NCBI RefSeq assembly: GCF_009769755.1
Contig: NZ_SDWJ01000002.1
Coordinates: 1,178,001 to 1,242,000 of the forward strand
Origin: Sphingorhabdus profundilacus
Lineage (GTDB): Bacteria; Pseudomonadota; Alphaproteobacteria; Sphingomonadales; Sphingomonadaceae
DNA length: 64,000 nucleotides
Direction of reading: 5' to 3'
Each line of letters opens with the position of its first letter. Position 1 is the first letter of the stretch. Shown piece by piece: positions 44,914 to 51,603 of this stretch. The notes beneath the pieces are model-generated. The model did no database searches. It was not told where the DNA came from and saw nothing but the letters and a program-made list of their open reading frames with translations. The position numbers and the translations under genes were made by a program.

Positions 44914-45144
44914 GAATATGCTCTCGATAAATAACAATGTCGGTCATGGGGGCCATAACCAAAAACAAACGATCGCGGATTTGCGATACCAAGATCGCTA
45001 TGTTATGGCAAGGCTCGACCCCTGATCTTGCCCTTAATCCTGCAACCGGTGCCAGATGGCCGCCAACCTTGATGATGATAGCAGCCGGGGTTCGGCTGAG
45101 TGTCCTGGCCTTAAAATGGGTCTGTGAAAGATTGGGGTGTCTGC

Positions 45145-47133
45145 ATGCTAAGCGAAAATGGCGGCATTTCGGGCTTACGCACGCCGCCGATTATACTGGA
45201 TATCGGAATTACGGGCCATCGCAGCCGCCATCCGATATTTTCGCACAACAGAATGGCAATTTCGGAAAGTCTGTCCCGGTTGATCGATCTGCTGGAACGG
45301 GTCGCGCATGAAACGCTGAATGACAGTGACGAAGGCAGCTTACCGCTTGTCCGCCTGCACTCCATGCTGGCCTATGGGGCAGATATCATGGCCGTTGATG
45401 CGGCGCGGGCTAAGGGATGGCCGGTGGTTGCCCCTTTGCCATTCGGGCGGGCGCTCAATCTGGCGATCAACGCGCATCCTACCAACCTTGCCGATATGCA
45501 GGCCTTGCTGGAGGGTCATGCCGCTGCCGATCCCGATACGGCATTGCGGGCGGCTGAGATCGAGACGATTGCAAAGCAGGTCAGCCTGTTCGAACTGGCG
45601 GAACAGGACAAAGACGTTGAGGCTTATTATCGCGCACATCTTGGCGCGCCGGATGACCGTTTGGCAGAACAGGCCTTTGTCGGAATATGTTCCGACCGCG
45701 CAGCGATGGCCGCACGGGTCATGGTCGAACATTCCGATATTCTGGTAGGTATATGGGACGGCGTGACGCGGGGGACAGTGGGCGGCACGCGGCACACCAT
45801 CGAAAGTGCTTTGGAACAGGGCATTACGGTCATCTGGATTGATGCCGCCAATCCCTATGGCTGGCATATCTTGCGCGCAACCGAAGAATTGGCCGGATTG
45901 ACCCGGCGCGCGCCCGATCCAAACCCCGAATCCGCAATCAGGGCAATTGTCCGGGAAACCCTGTGTCCTGTTGGCGACAAGTGGCAAAATGAACCTGCCA
46001 ACCGGAAATGGCGCGCCAAAAGCACAGCGCTGTTTCAGGCTTATCGACGGGTTGAGGCGGTGTTTGGAACGCCCGGGGCCCGCGCTTTTCGAAGCCTTAC
46101 CCAATATTACGAACATCCTGATGCCATAGCGGCGGGCAGCGGTGCGCCCATGCTGAAGGCTGCAAAATCCCTTCCCGGCGGGGATCCGGTCATTGCCGAA
46201 CGGATCGCGACCGACATATTGCAGCCATTTGCCTGGGCGGACGGCGTATCGACCTGGCTATCGGATGCTTATCGCGGTGGAATGGTCGCCAGTTTTTTGT
46301 TATCGGCCTTTGCGATTATTGGGGGCATTGCCTATCTGCCCTTTGCATCGATTGATGCCAAATGGGGCTTTGCTGCGTTTGAATTTCTGGTTTTGGCGGC
46401 GATCGTCCTGATCTTTCTAACCGGCAAAAGGCGGCATTGGCATGAACGCTGGTTTGAAACCCGGCGCGTCGCCGAATATTTCCGGCATGCGCCAATATTG
46501 TTGTTATTGGGGGCGGCCCGGTCAACCGGCCGGTGGCCGCGCGGATCAAAGGGCAATTGGCCTGAATGGCATGTCCGGCACGCCATGCGTGGTGTGGGGT
46601 TGCCACATATGAAAGTGACATCTGAATTTCTGCGTGCTGCCCTTGTGCTGATGCGTGACCATCATGTGTTGCCACAACGCAGCTATCATCAGGGCAAATC
46701 GATCCGTCTCAAGCGTACACAGCATAATCTGCATCGCACTTCCGAGCTGTTATTCTTGCTGGCGGTTCTTTCGGTCACGGTTTACCTTTTGATCGAAATT
46801 GGAGCCGCTATGCAAGTTTTGCCGCATGATTTGCCCCATGCAGTAGCCAAGTCCTTCACCTTTTTGGGGGTCTTGTTTCCCACATTAGGTGGCGCCTTTG
46901 CCGGCATCCATTATTTCGGTGACTTTGAACGCTTTGCCGCAATATCGGAAATAACGGCAGAAAAGCTGGGCGATGTAGAAACGCGCATCGCATTTCTGCT
47001 GGACGCGCCCGATTGCGACATCGCCTATTCACGCGTTTCGGGTCTTGCCCATGCGATAGACGATATCGTCGTCGACGAAATTGAAAACTGGCAGGCAGTC
47101 TTTGGCGGAAAGCATATCACGGTCCCGGTTTAA
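45145..47133 (+). CDS. SLOG-like and SLATT-like membrane protein
   Basis: 662-residue protein with two parts. Residues ~10-260 look like a SLOG (Rossmann-type) domain: LDIGITGHRSR, LAYGADIMAVDAARAKGWPV, and SDILVGIWDG followed by GGTRHTIESALEQGITVIWI. The C-terminal part has two pairs of transmembrane helices (about 382-402, 408-430; 533-556, 568-592) with WHERWFETRRVAEYFR between them, resembling the SLATT/DUF4231 family. SLOG domains sense or make nucleotide-type signals and SLATT domains are predicted pore-like effectors. ATG 45145 is chosen over GTG 45124. A secreted protease gene follows after 101 bases. No cellular function is known. Confidence 0.6.
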   Translation: MLSENGGISGLRTPPIILDIGITGHRSRHPIFSHNRMAISESLSRLIDLLERVAHETLNDSDEGSLPLVRLHSMLAYGADIMAVDAARAKGWPVVAPLPFGRALNLAINAHPTNLADMQALLEGHAAADPDTALRAAEIETIAKQVSLFELAEQDKDVEAYYRAHLGAPDDRLAEQAFVGICSDRAAMAARVMVEHSDILVGIWDGVTRGTVGGTRHTIESALEQGITVIWIDAANPYGWHILRATEELAGLTRRAPDPNPESAIRAIVRETLCPVGDKWQNEPANRKWRAKSTALFQAYRRVEAVFGTPGARAFRSLTQYYEHPDAIAAGSGAPMLKAAKSLPGGDPVIAERIATDILQPFAWADGVSTWLSDAYRGGMVASFLLSAFAIIGGIAYLPFASIDAKWGFAAFEFLVLAAIVLIFLTGKRRHWHERWFETRRVAEYFRHAPILLLLGAARSTGRWPRGSKGNWPEWHVRHAMRGVGLPHMKVTSEFLRAALVLMRDHHVLPQRSYHQGKSIRLKRTQHNLHRTSELLFLLAVLSVTVYLLIEIGAAMQVLPHDLPHAVAKSFTFLGVLFPTLGGAFAGIHYFGDFERFAAISEITAEKLGDVETRIAFLLDAPDCDIAYSRVSGLAHAIDDIVVDEIENWQAVFGGKHITVPV

Positions 47134-47150
47134 CGGGGCAAATTCCCCGT
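47133..47150. other. Hairpin ACGGGG/CCCCGT
   Basis: Six-base arms (47133-47138 with 47145-47150) directly after the stop of the SLOG/SLATT gene. No T-run follows (AACAGGCAAAA), so it is a weak or factor-dependent terminator at most; read-through into the protease gene is plausible. Confidence 0.4.
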
Positions 47151-47234
47151 AACAGGCAAAAGTATTACGTAAAAAGCTGTACTGTGATACTGGTTCAGGA
47201 ACGGGTCGCGCCGGTTGCTTCCAATGGGGGGAAG

Positions 47235-49250
47235 ATGACGCAGCATGTTCGTGGAATAAAGCCTTCGGAATGGGTATTTTATCGTCATCTGGTTACCGGG
47301 CTGTTGCTATTGACGGCATTTTGCAGCGTGCAGAATGCTTTCGCACAGCAACTTGATGCCTATCAAGACGGGCTGCCGCTCGACGATGTAGGTGACTCAT
47401 CGGCAGAGACAGTGCCTGCGCCAAATTCCCTTCCTACCGCTGTTCCGTCGGGGTGGATTATCGGCGCAAATGAGCCCACGGCTGATGCCCGTTCGGATCA
47501 ACGTCCGATCACCATTGGGTTTCGACAGAATTTGGGCCGCGACATGAAACGGATGCAGGATTTTGTCGCCAGAGATTGGGCGTTGCAAATTGGCTGGCCT
47601 GCTGAATTCGAAATGAGCCGTTCTTTCGACGACCCGTCGCAACTGGTCCTGATCGATATGTTGCACCAGCCGCCATTTATAGACATGGCTGACACGGACA
47701 TTTCCTTTATTGCCAATAATTACGACGCCGTGGCGATATCACGCGAAGTGAATTCTGCGATCATGATCGGCAATCCTGATGCCCCGGGATTTGCGGAAAA
47801 ATTCTACGTCGAGATCGCCAAAATCATTCGCGCGCGCGCCCTTATTGCCAATTCTTTCCCCGCCAATGCACGTGAATATGCACTGTGCGCTGAAAAAGGT
47901 GACCGGCCATGTCCAGAAACAGGTCAATCCCGGATAACGGATCTGGGCACCAATGATAAGGTGCACTTTGCGCTTCGAAACGAAAGCCAGGAACCACAAT
48001 TTGTATATGTGTTTCTGATCGACCCGGAAAATGAATTACGCCTTGTCATAGGTGGCCCAACGCCCCTTGAACCCGGCGCGATGGTGGAAGCCAAAGGCGA
48101 ACCTGTCGAGCTTAAGCAGGGGCGCTATCATATCTTCATACTCCGGTCCGATCGTCCGATTGATGATGCTCTGTTTCTTAGCGACATTGGGAAAATCGAC
48201 CCTTCGAAATGTAGCGAAGGAGTCGCAGAAAGCCTGTGCGCTATCCTGTCCGGGCAAGATATTTCCATTCCCCGCGGGAGCGCATTGTGGGACCGGGGGT
48301 GGAGCATGAACGTCGAAACCATTGCCGCCGTCGTCAAAAAAACGGTGACAGTAGGTGGCGGAGATGTTGCAAAGGCAGGCTTCGCGCCTTGGCAGGTGCA
48401 AATCTATTCCAATCAAACCTATAGCAAGGCGCAAATTGCCAAGGACACAGAGGCAGGGGCCAAGGGCAAGTCACTGGCGAAGCAATTGCCTTTTCAACTC
48501 TATCATCGTTGTGCGGGGTCGTTAATTGCGAAGAATATTGTTTTGACGGCGGCGCATTGCGTTGCACATCCACCGGTCGACGGCACAAATGTTCTACGTA
48601 CCCGCGAAGTTCTTGTGGGTACGCAGACCTTGAGCCAAGGCGGTGCGCGGTACCGGATTGTATCGGCTGTGGTGCACAAAGGGTATAAGCCGGGCAGTCA
48701 AAAGGATGATATTGCGGTCGTGCGGATCGAACCCATCGCAGCGCCGGCAACGCAATATGCAATCAAATTACCCGATGATGTGGCCGGATTCAGCAAGGTT
48801 GTTGCTGGATCGAAAATCAGCGTACTCGGCTGGGGTTTTACCGGGGTAGTTGGCCGGACGGAACGTCATGAACGAACACGGGCAGGCCCCCAATTTGCAC
48901 AGGATAAACTCAGGATAGCTGCCATGCAGGCTTATGATACCAACGCTTGCAAGCTTTTGTCCGGCTATCAAAATATCGACAAAAAGATTTGTGCAATCAC
49001 GCCAGAAGACCGCACAAAACCGGGCAACAGTTTCAGCTGTCGCGGGGACAGCGGCGGCCCTGTTATCCAGCAATCCAATGGACGTGTTGTTCAGGTTGGT
49101 CTGGTATCTGGCGGTGTGGGATGCGGCGCGAATGAAAATGGGAAGCAAAATCCATCGCTGTTCGTCGATCTGGCGCAATACACGACATGGATCAAAAATG
49201 CAGAGACGCGCGTGCGCGCAATCTCGAACGCTGTTGAACCCATGCCTTGA
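47235..49250 (+). CDS. Secreted trypsin-like serine protease with large N-terminal region
   Basis: 671-residue exported protein. The start ATG 47235 follows GGGGGGAAG and gives a long N-region with hydrophobic core LVTGLLLLTAFCSVQNAFAQ. Residues ~60-370 are an uncharacterised region with a DUF4384-like beta segment (FVYVFLIDPENELRLVIGG, RYHIFILRSDRPIDD). The C-terminus is an S1 peptidase with triad His441 (LTAAHC), Asp492 (DDIAVVRI) and Ser606 (CRGDSGGPV). All three are intact, so activity is expected in the periplasm or outside. Next to SLOG/SLATT and TIR genes. Its substrate is unknown. Confidence 0.85.
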   Translation: MTQHVRGIKPSEWVFYRHLVTGLLLLTAFCSVQNAFAQQLDAYQDGLPLDDVGDSSAETVPAPNSLPTAVPSGWIIGANEPTADARSDQRPITIGFRQNLGRDMKRMQDFVARDWALQIGWPAEFEMSRSFDDPSQLVLIDMLHQPPFIDMADTDISFIANNYDAVAISREVNSAIMIGNPDAPGFAEKFYVEIAKIIRARALIANSFPANAREYALCAEKGDRPCPETGQSRITDLGTNDKVHFALRNESQEPQFVYVFLIDPENELRLVIGGPTPLEPGAMVEAKGEPVELKQGRYHIFILRSDRPIDDALFLSDIGKIDPSKCSEGVAESLCAILSGQDISIPRGSALWDRGWSMNVETIAAVVKKTVTVGGGDVAKAGFAPWQVQIYSNQTYSKAQIAKDTEAGAKGKSLAKQLPFQLYHRCAGSLIAKNIVLTAAHCVAHPPVDGTNVLRTREVLVGTQTLSQGGARYRIVSAVVHKGYKPGSQKDDIAVVRIEPIAAPATQYAIKLPDDVAGFSKVVAGSKISVLGWGFTGVVGRTERHERTRAGPQFAQDKLRIAAMQAYDTNACKLLSGYQNIDKKICAITPEDRTKPGNSFSCRGDSGGPVIQQSNGRVVQVGLVSGGVGCGANENGKQNPSLFVDLAQYTTWIKNAETRVRAISNAVEPMP

Positions 49251-49275
49251 GGATGAAGGTTCTGTCTTTTTCCGC

Positions 49276-49326
49276 CGTCACCCTGAAACCGCAAATGTGC
49301 TGAGCACCATTTGGATCAGGGTGACG
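49276..49326. repeat. REP-like inverted repeat CGTCACCCTGA/TCAGGGTGACG
   Basis: Perfect 11-bp arms (49276-49286 and 49316-49326) enclose a 29-base loop that itself contains AAATGTGCTGAGCACCATTT, a second near-palindrome. It lies between the convergent protease and lipoprotein genes. The arm core matches the element at 20176-20196. Confidence 0.65.
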
Positions 49327-49376
49327 ATCAAGCGAAGCGATATTTATCGGTTCACGGCCAATTCGGAAATCTCGGA

Positions 49377-49628
49377 TTACTGTTCAGTATTACCCTGATC
49401 CGTCGAACCCTGGTCGGTCGAACCTTGATCCGTCGAACCTTGGTCTGTTGATCCCTGATCCGTCGTGCCTTCTTCGGTCTTGGCAGCGGCATCTTCAGCA
49501 ACCGGTTCGGCCACAACAGTTTCATCAGCGACAACTTCTTCGGAAGCTTTTTCCGCTTCGGGTTTATTGCAGGCGGTTACGCCCAGCGACAAAATGGCAG
49601 CAGACGACAATAAAATGATCTTATGCAT
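49377..49628 (-). CDS. Small acidic lipoprotein with TDQGS repeats
   Basis: 83-residue predicted lipoprotein: MHKIILLSSAAILSLGVTAC with lipobox Cys20, an acidic Ala/Glu/Val region (about 24-50), then five tandem TDQG-S/N pentapeptides and a short end. No enzyme domain. ATG 49628 is chosen because it gives a proper signal and GGGGGAAAG precedes it. The upstream frame continues to 49664. It follows the TIR-TPR gene after 28 bases on the same strand. Function unknown, perhaps a cell-surface spacer. Confidence 0.75.
   Translation of the reverse strand: MHKIILLSSAAILSLGVTACNKPEAEKASEEVVADETVVAEPVAEDAAAKTEEGTTDQGSTDQGSTDQGSTDQGSTDQGNTEQ
49389..49463 (-). repeat. Five tandem 15-base repeats coding TDQGS
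   Basis: Five consecutive 15-base units within the lipoprotein gene, encoding TDQGS four times and TDQGN once. Units differ by synonymous changes (for example GACCAG against GATCAG), so they are old enough to have drifted. Any change in unit number keeps the frame. Confidence 0.85.
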
Positions 49629-49656
49629 AATCTTTCCCCCTTCAGGAAATATGAAG

Positions 49657-51603
49657 TTACACAAATTTCAGTTGCCGTAGCAAGGCAATAAAACGGGTAT
49701 CTGCACGCAGCGGTTCAAGGAACGGATCATTCAGCAAATAAACAAGCCCTGAATCCGCTGCGGCATAGGCTTTATCGAGTGCGGCAAAGGCTTTTTCGAT
49801 TTCGCCCCATTGGGCAAATATCTGCGCCTGTTGATACAGCGCATTATCGCCATGTTCGGCAATCAGCGCAGCCAGCGCCGCGTTCGCCTTGCCCTTATCG
49901 TTGCGCCTGTGGGCGATGATGGCATCGCCGGGCAGCGCTAAAAGGCTGTTGCTTTCCAGCGCGAATTCCGCCTGCGCCTTGTCAAGATCGCCCAGCATGA
50001 AATAGGCATTTGCGATATCGCCATGCAATGTGCCGCGCTGCGGGCTGAGCGCCAACGCCTTGCGCCCGAAACCAATCGCGGCTTGATAGGCTTTGGCCGC
50101 ATATTTGATATTACCTGCGGATTTGAACATGGACGAATTGAGCGGATCTAGCACAGCGGCCCTGTTAATGGCCGTTTCGGCGGCGACAAAGCGTCCCGTG
50201 CGCGCGCAATATACAGCATAGCGACTAAGTACATCGACATCGCCCTGTGCCAGTTGATGTGCGCGTTCATAAGGTGCGCGGGCCGCAGCCGCATCGAGCC
50301 GCCCGTAAAACAAGGCATAGCCCAAGGCAGCATAAGCAGGTGCAAAATTTGGCGCGTTGCGCGTCGCCTGCTGCGCTTCGGACACCGCTTCGTTATACAA
50401 GGCCTTGCGTTCAACGGCTGTTGCATATTGGTTGGCGATGACCGCAAGAGTGCGCGAACGCAGGGCCCGGGCGGCGGCATAATCAGCATCGATGGCAATA
50501 GCCTGTTCCAGCTTCGCCAGCGCCGCCCGCTCGGATGCTTCGTCAATATGTGATTCAAAAAGATCGCGCCCGCGCAGATACGCATCGAAAGCGGCCAGGC
50601 TTTTCGTACCACCGACCTGAAGGGCCTTTTTACCAGCCGAACCTTCATCCATCACCGCAGATAGCGCCCCTGCAACAGCAGTAGCAATTTCGCTTTGTAC
50701 GGCGAAAATATCAGCCAATTGCCGTTCGAAAATTCGCGACCATTGGGTCGTTCCTGTTCGGCCATCGGTCAACTCCGCCGCAATTTTTACCCTGTCGCCC
50801 ACGCGCTGCACATTTCCATCCAGCAGGAATGACACATTCAATTCTTTGGCAATCGAACGCGCATTACCGCTATGTTCTCGAAACTGGTTGGACGAAGTTT
50901 GCCCGACAATTTCCAATAACCCGTTGCGCGAGAGATTGGACCGGATTTCAGATGCCAGCCCGTCGGAAAAATACCGTTGCTGCGGGTCCCCACTCAAATT
51001 ATCAAAGGGCAAGACGGCAACGCTGTTGCGGATGGCCGGGCTGCCGAGCATATTTCCTTTCCAGATAGCTATACCCGCAGCCGCCGCAGCCACCGATAGT
51101 CCGCCGCCGATGGCCAAACGCCGTCCTATTTTTCTGCTTTGTTTTACAGGGGCAATCGGAATGGAAAGGACCGCGCGATGCGATGCCGCAATGGCCCGCA
51201 ACATGCGAAGAATTTCGGTGTCCGAACTGTCTATTCTGGATTGAGCCAGATTGATAACCTGAAACTGTCCAAAACCCAGCGGTGGTTCACAGCCATCCAG
51301 CGATAACGGTATTAAAATGCCCCGGTCGCGGCCGCGTGTGGCTTCGTCACGCACCCAATGGGACTGGACCGATGTTCGGGACCACAGGACAACCACGGCT
51401 TTGGCCCTGTCAAGCGCATCCTCCGTCGCTTTTGAAAACCGCTCGCCTCCTTCAAGCAACCCGTCCCACCATGTGGTAAAACCGGCATCTTGGATAACAC
51501 CTATTATCGGCACGGCCCGCGCCTGATCTTCGCGCGAATAGCTGAAGAACACAGTCGATGGCTGCGGATCGGAATTATCAGTTGTCGGGTCGCGGTCAGT
51601 CAA
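49657..51603 (-). CDS. TIR - transmembrane - TPR protein
   Basis: 648-residue protein. Residues ~16-120 are a TIR domain: STVFFSYSREDQARA, TTWWDGLLEGGERF, VVVLWSRTSVQSHWVRDEA, with Glu87 in WVRDE as the candidate catalytic Glu of TIR NAD-hydrolases. A transmembrane helix follows (about 164-181), then a segment of the kind found in adenylate-cyclase-like TPR proteins (SVAVLPFDNLSGDPQQRYFS) and C-terminal TPRs (about 330-648). It starts at TTG 51603. Whether it is an NADase, a scaffold or a sensor is not decidable here. Flanked by a lipoprotein gene and, 118 bases upstream, a divergent PPIase gene. Confidence 0.85.
   Translation of the reverse strand: MTDRDPTTDNSDPQPSTVFFSYSREDQARAVPIIGVIQDAGFTTWWDGLLEGGERFSKATEDALDRAKAVVVLWSRTSVQSHWVRDEATRGRDRGILIPLSLDGCEPPLGFGQFQVINLAQSRIDSSDTEILRMLRAIAASHRAVLSIPIAPVKQSRKIGRRLAIGGGLSVAAAAAGIAIWKGNMLGSPAIRNSVAVLPFDNLSGDPQQRYFSDGLASEIRSNLSRNGLLEIVGQTSSNQFREHSGNARSIAKELNVSFLLDGNVQRVGDRVKIAAELTDGRTGTTQWSRIFERQLADIFAVQSEIATAVAGALSAVMDEGSAGKKALQVGGTKSLAAFDAYLRGRDLFESHIDEASERAALAKLEQAIAIDADYAAARALRSRTLAVIANQYATAVERKALYNEAVSEAQQATRNAPNFAPAYAALGYALFYGRLDAAAARAPYERAHQLAQGDVDVLSRYAVYCARTGRFVAAETAINRAAVLDPLNSSMFKSAGNIKYAAKAYQAAIGFGRKALALSPQRGTLHGDIANAYFMLGDLDKAQAEFALESNSLLALPGDAIIAHRRNDKGKANAALAALIAEHGDNALYQQAQIFAQWGEIEKAFAALDKAYAAADSGLVYLLNDPFLEPLRADTRFIALLRQLKFV

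Follow-up and report, generated by a model that had tools for sequence, protein, structure and literature searches.

What could a secreted protease and a small lipoprotein have to do with a membrane-bound TIR protein and a putative signal-gated pore? The question is raised by a locus of Sphingorhabdus profundilacus that lies in a window of 64,000 nucleotides (contig NZ_SDWJ01000002.1, positions 1,178,001 to 1,242,000; coordinates below are those of this whole analyzed stretch). Four genes, here called A to D, form two convergent pairs (A> B> <C <D), placed by the list of open reading frames (ORFs) where an initial annotation had put them. Gene A (45124..47133, + strand, 669 aa) encodes a predicted SLOG-SLATT-SLATT membrane protein, and B (47184..49250, + strand, 688 aa) a probably exported protein with a caspase-derived N-terminal part and a trypsin domain. 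On the opposite strand, C (49377..49664, - strand, 95 aa) encodes a small predicted lipoprotein with STDQG pentapeptide repeats, and D (49657..51603, - strand, 648 aa) a TIR-transmembrane (TM)-(TolB_N-like)-TPR putative receptor. With slightly better than even confidence, we read the four genes as one envelope-spanning TIR-to-SLOG signaling unit, probably for defense or self-destruction, with the protease and the lipoprotein at its input.

Loci were gathered by their match to A alone, so that the neighbors of A are an independent observation. Among 199 genomes of the family, matches were found to A in 42, to D in 27, and to B in 22 (with thresholds of our choice, E 1e-60 for D and 1e-12 for B). 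Paired presence was 24 genomes versus 5.7 expected for A and D, 18 versus 4.6 for A and B, and 20 versus 3.0 for B and D. TIR_2 domains, 113 in all, were then located in 38 of the 42 A genomes, taking one A place per genome and leaving out two with fragments (G010, G050) and two with tiny contigs (G063, in which a TIR gene adjoins A, and G159). One lay within 6 kb of A in 26 of these 38 genomes, versus 0.50 expected, and A's neighbor was the sole TIR_2 gene in 10 of the 14 genomes that have just one. TIR_2 was present in all 38 (38/38) versus 17 of 40 genomes without A, a hand-picked control (mostly low handle numbers plus three of the genus, with G007, G011, G018, G022, and G038 passed over) whose figure is slightly low, since G038 carries a TIR gene. 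The pairwise distances of A and D correlate as well (r 0.74, 0/2000 permutations, n = 21), as shared species history alone could bring about.

The neighborhood also survives rearrangement. In a set of 23 loci with close relatives of A (L021 to L027 and L029 to L044), the A, trypsin (t), C, and D genes were contiguous in 14, in four orders: A> B> <C <D (seven loci), B> <C <D A> (three), D> C> <t A> (one), and D> C> t> A> (three, with gaps of 16 to 62 bp apart from one of 234 bp and one case in which the called ORFs overlap). A distant relative of A, at L062, stands together with caspase, trypsin, C, and D genes. In the nearest named relatives of the locus, from Sphingorhabdus contaminans (73% identity for A) and a Sphingopyxis metagenome-assembled genome (75%), the A-B-C-D order and both flanks are unchanged (L021, L023). 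A gene set that is rearranged yet kept together argues for selection for a unit. The initial annotation had allowed that the linkage might be chance, a caution made hard to maintain by these recurring, rearranged neighborhoods and by D carrying the only TIR_2 domain found in the 2.9-Mb host genome. Its expectation of adjacency in diverse strains was borne out by the 14 contiguous loci and by the TIR genes close to A. Scattering, named there as a refutation, was seen in part: A stood alone, with no TIR, trypsin, or lipoprotein gene nearby, in 4 of the 23 loci (L030, L033, L034, and L036, three of them from one genus), and in two of these genomes a D-type gene sits elsewhere (L094, L097). Two further loci (L024, L035) have just a TIR gene 3 to 4 kb away from A, and L029 is at a contig end. 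The expected absence from close relatives held insofar as A was missing from 157 of the 199 genomes, including the three others of the genus; an empty site could not be cleanly delimited.

Protein A is predicted to join a signal sensor to a membrane effector. Its N-terminal part (45196..45963, + strand, ca. residues 25 to 280) matched no Pfam family; the AlphaFold2 (AF2) model (predicted local distance difference test [pLDDT] 84.6) clearly has a SLOG fold there, with structure matches. This is a YpsA/DprA/LOG-like Rossmann fold with a conserved GxTGHR after strand 1 and a GGT loop, and A fits the YpsA-like SLOG superfamily. The SLOG-like sensor of the initial annotation therefore stands, and its other refutation, the lack of such a fold, did not materialize. 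Two putative SLATT modules follow. The first (46186..46518, + strand, ca. residues 355 to 465) has two TM helices, delimited by an NF033634 match at 365 to 465, hydropathy, and modeled helices; the second (46621..47004, + strand, ca. residues 500 to 627) has two long modeled helices, a second SLATT_1 stretch, and a SLATT_4 match in the relative at L048. Protein A itself matched NCBIfam SLATT_1 at E 2.7e-7 and 30.6 bits, under the cutoff of 41, which was passed by three of the eight tested members of its family (59.3 bits at L048, 45.3 at L118, and 42.5 at L093), with the other five below. The curated model thus supports a predicted place for the family of A among the SLATT two-TM effectors, in keeping with the SLATT-like pairs first proposed.

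The TIR-TM-TPR architecture proposed for D was recovered. The TIR domain (51226..51552, - strand, residues 18 to 126; PF13676, TIR_2, 2.9e-18) has a WWD motif and the catalytic Glu87, which is kept in 22 of 22 rows of the alignment; S21, W45, and D47 are kept in 21 of 22 (one gap). A single TM segment was found by hydropathy (51064..51120, - strand, residues 162 to 180) with RKIGRR just before it, which by the positive-inside rule predicts the TIR domain inside and the TPR half outside. That half (49678..50463, - strand, ca. residues 381 to 642; Pfam and NCBIfam) is predicted to be periplasmic, and the TolB-like match is weak (NCBIfam 1.7e-5). Protein C has a lipobox, with ATG 49628 as its likely start, and a 15-bp tandem repeat (49392 to 49465), as expected of the repeat-bearing lipoprotein first described. 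Its relatives adjoining D have differing repeats or acidic tails (STDQG, SNDQG, DERTGP), so that composition and place are better kept than sequence: the repeat unit varies between genomes and the position beside D is constant.

Protein B brought a feature that the initial annotation had missed, namely, a caspase-derived N-terminal region. ATG 47235 suits its signal peptide better than the ORF start at 47184, and the resulting leader, hydrophobic and ending AFA/QQ by eye and by hydropathy, suggests export, as first claimed. The trypsin domain (48357..49193, + strand, residues 392 to 670; PF00089, 1.5e-27) has the His, Asp, and Ser triad that is kept in all 26 aligned trypsins of these loci (26/26), so that the intact triad reported earlier holds and B can be placed, by fold domain and triad, among the predicted S1 (trypsin) peptidases. 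The ca. 270-residue region preceding it (47496..48308, + strand, ca. residues 105 to 375) recurs in a separate gene of four sister loci (L032, L050, L060, and L062), where it forms the C-terminal part of the protein, behind an N-terminal caspase domain (PF00656, E 2.2e-10 to 1.2e-14). In three of the four, the caspase domain directly follows a leader, and the ORF of L032 begins at the edge of the stretch. When the region was searched as a single sequence against 5,752 ORFs, the four caspase ORFs matched at 4.2e-7, 1.4e-5, 2.3e-4, and 1.2e-3, and every remaining match was a trypsin ORF of B's own kind. A resemblance to DUF4384 was below the cutoff (0.015 and 0.018 in two sister caspases). Pfam found no caspase catalytic domain (PF00656) in B, which does not count as a caspase (C14) peptidase; because it matches just the C-terminal region of the caspase proteins, it looks like a fusion of that region with a trypsin. 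The trypsin gene is duplicated in tandem in L022 and L025 (9984-14024), and two trypsin ORFs also occur in L026 and L040.

The literature suggests how these parts could work together. Bacterial TIR domains convert nicotinamide adenine dinucleotide (NAD+) to cyclic ADP-ribose (cADPR) isomers or His-ADPR, signals that switch on the Thoeris effectors: SIR2-SLOG in type I, TM-macro in type II, and a caspase-like protease in type IV (PMC12847820). YpsA-like SLOGs are considered to sense cADPR, and SLATT to act as an ADP-ribose-regulated effector of membrane permeability (PMC9503650, PMC7159879). SLATT is also predicted to be a nucleotide-signal-responsive pore, and TIR-SLATT gene pairs are reported from Firmicute phages (PMC9503650). 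What is directly observed here are the domains, the catalytic residues, and the linkage of the genes together with its conservation; from these we infer the following order of steps. D would sit in the inner membrane, in the predicted topology of a cytoplasmic TIR domain and a periplasmic TolB_N-like/TPR part. Triggering of the outer part would let the TIR domains assemble and convert NAD+ to a putative ADP-ribose-type signal; bound by the SLOG domain of A, this would open the attached SLATT helices, the presumed pore, and permeabilize the inner membrane. The input stage would most likely be the exported trypsin (plus the exported caspase in sister loci) and the lipoprotein, placed there because they share with D's outer half a compartment and with D a phylogenetic distribution. 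The proteases may cleave D, the lipoprotein, or one another, so that an envelope event, phage entry for example, leads to activation of D.

The insect Toll pathway likewise has an extracytoplasmic trypsin-type protease and a membrane receptor whose TIR domain is intracellular. By functional analogy alone, with no homology of pathways claimed and with the bacterial TIR domain a predicted enzyme, a bacterial "Toll-like" route can be tentatively imagined, in which a periplasmic trypsin/caspase zymogen pair and the lipoprotein trigger the inner-membrane TIR receptor and the signal opens a SLOG-gated SLATT pore, a suicide from the outside in that would set it apart from the cytoplasmic sensors of Thoeris. 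In this specific form we consider it doubtful.

The main rival retains the TIR-SLOG-SLATT axis and makes the protease the executioner, a periplasmic zymogen that attacks the envelope or, once SLATT has opened, cytoplasmic proteins. Several sister trypsins do have a canonical zymogen junction, R/IVGG or R/VVRG (L050, L062, L032, and L060), caspase and trypsin genes are paired in six loci (L032, L050, L060, L062, L098, and L103), and a caspase-like effector is activated by N7-cADPR in type IV Thoeris (PMC12847820). However, the window protease has VTVGGG with no preceding Arg and has lost the caspase domain, and once exported it would be on the side of the membrane opposite the cytoplasmic signal. 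In the 199-genome survey, moreover, the protease was accompanied by D in 20 of 22 genomes and by A in 18 of 22. An execution role is, in our judgment, unlikely.

Less likely again, to us, are two independent neighbors, with D, C, and B a unit for envelope homeostasis and A serving a role of its own. Four loci have D with trypsin and/or C and no A nearby (L094, L095, L098, and L100), which indicates that the protease tracks D, and A relatives are solitary in several genomes. Against such independence, adjacency of A and TIR genes far exceeds chance within the family (the 26 of 38 genomes above) and outside it, where A relatives were found in 16 genomes (8 by a class search and 8 more by a phylum search) and TIR_2 lay within 6 kb of A in 5, versus 0.22 expected, a sixth having a subcutoff TIR_2. 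The D-C-trypsin-A runs on one strand and the A-D distance correlation, though shared history could give the latter, point the same way. We find it least probable that D uses its TIR domain as a nonenzymatic adaptor or plain NAD+ depleter and SLOG-SLATT senses another nucleotide, for although the signal is inferred here and NAD+ depletion is the mode of some bacterial TIRs (PMC12847820), the catalytic Glu is invariant in the 22 aligned rows, TIR genes of more than one class are repeatedly accompanied by a dedicated SLOG receptor of the YpsA type, and such SLOGs are described as cADPR sensors (PMC9503650).

Several observations weigh against the signaling unit that we favor. The full four-gene set was contiguous or nearly so in 15 of 46 loci, only some A relatives having the protease; at the thresholds used, 18 of the 42 A genomes lacked D; and TIR_2 was absent within 6 kb of A in 12 of 38 genomes and from the examined stretch at 13 of 46 loci, among them distant A relatives amid housekeeping genes (L045, L049, L051, L053, and L055). 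The co-occurrence statistics ignore shared ancestry, the topology of D is based on hydropathy and the positive-inside rule, and for B the AF2 model is of low quality (pLDDT 49). PADLOC returned no convincing system among the window proteins, merely weak TIR and protease fragments, and by Pfam the flanking genes are housekeeping-like (cytochrome b561-YceI on the left; PpiC and HupE/UreJ on the right), so that no defense island is demonstrated.

Among described systems, the locus has the general hallmark of Thoeris, a TIR gene with a catalytic Glu (E87) beside a predicted effector gene in the same cluster. It departs from type I (ThsB TIR with ThsA SIR2-SLOG) in that the effector part of A is made of SLATT helices with no SIR2 by Pfam, the TIR protein is predicted to be membrane-bound with TPR outside, and a protease and a lipoprotein are added. 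With type II (TIR with TM-macro ThsA) it would share a signal-gated membrane effector (PMC12847820), but the sensor here is SLOG, the helices are SLATT, and Pfam found no macro domain in the four proteins. With type IV (TIR with a caspase-like protease) the link of TIR to the caspase family is common, and sister loci encode real caspases; in contrast, Pfam found no Peptidase_C14 in the window proteins, the proteases bear signal peptides, and SLOG-SLATT is present. Since the effectors of types I, II, and IV were not found by Pfam, we do not file the locus as Thoeris, although it may work alike. The Aravind group has predicted conflict systems with SLATT, which share the putative nucleotide-responsive SLATT pore and the partnership with TIR, and SLATT, TIR, trypsin, and caspase are named together for GTPase-centered ones (PMC9503650, PMC7159879). 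Their accessible text describes no SLOG-SLATT-SLATT protein with a TIR-TM-TPR receptor, lipoprotein, and exported trypsin, and the GTPase/GAP1 core of the GTPase-centered systems was not found by Pfam in the four genes. Joint recurrence of SLOG, SLATT, TIR, and peptidases in predicted conflict systems is thus already known; the envelope-spanning four-gene arrangement was not found in a literature search that did not reach subscription papers. If our reading is true, TIR-based bacterial immunity extends beyond the cytoplasmic sensing of Thoeris, with an outer-sensing, inner-TIR receptor wired to an ADP-ribose-gated pore, proteases as an outer stage, and an exchange of caspase and trypsin modules inside a single unit. 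The small four-gene set would also allow the ligand of the SLOG-SLATT channel to be tested. The function of that channel, long predicted, is to our knowledge, from a search that was not exhaustive, unmeasured.

TIR is a general partner of the SLOG-SLATT family, a second point overlooked in the initial annotation. The pairing is common and not universal, as TIR_2 is missing near A in 10 of the 16 genomes from outside the family and several home-family members lie among housekeeping genes. In 7 of 46 loci, distant A relatives (ca. 25% identity) adjoin TIR-TM-TPR proteins of a second class, and across the wider family the TIR partner would draw on interchangeable sensor parts (TPR of two classes, FGE-sulfatase, and SIR2). 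The cases with TIR near A outside the family include L128 and L129. At L128:6460-10239, a SLOG-SLATT gene is followed by one for a protein with TIR (subcutoff) and FGE-sulfatase domains. At L129 (2375-10771, another class), SLOG-SLATT, SIR2-TIR, and nSTAND1 ATPase (1,576 aa) genes follow one another on the same strand, likely a three-gene conflict operon. A SLOG-SLATT and TIR pair also lies on a Caballeronia plasmid (L118:2524-15056), where its neighbors are a gene with WD40 repeats and a TPR gene whose annotation is cyclic nucleotide biosynthesis. In L093:3330-6259, from a genome in which no TIR_2 was found, the gene of a SLOG-SLATT relative shares one base with that of a patatin-like phospholipase resembling phospholipase effectors of the cyclic oligonucleotide-based antiphage signaling system (CBASS) (PADLOC phospholipase effector, 4.6e-45; NCBIfam CBASS_lipase below the cutoff). 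Finally, at L091:9508-11508, an A-like gene appears as two ORFs in succession, one for the SLOG half and the other for the SLATT half, by either a true split or a frameshift.

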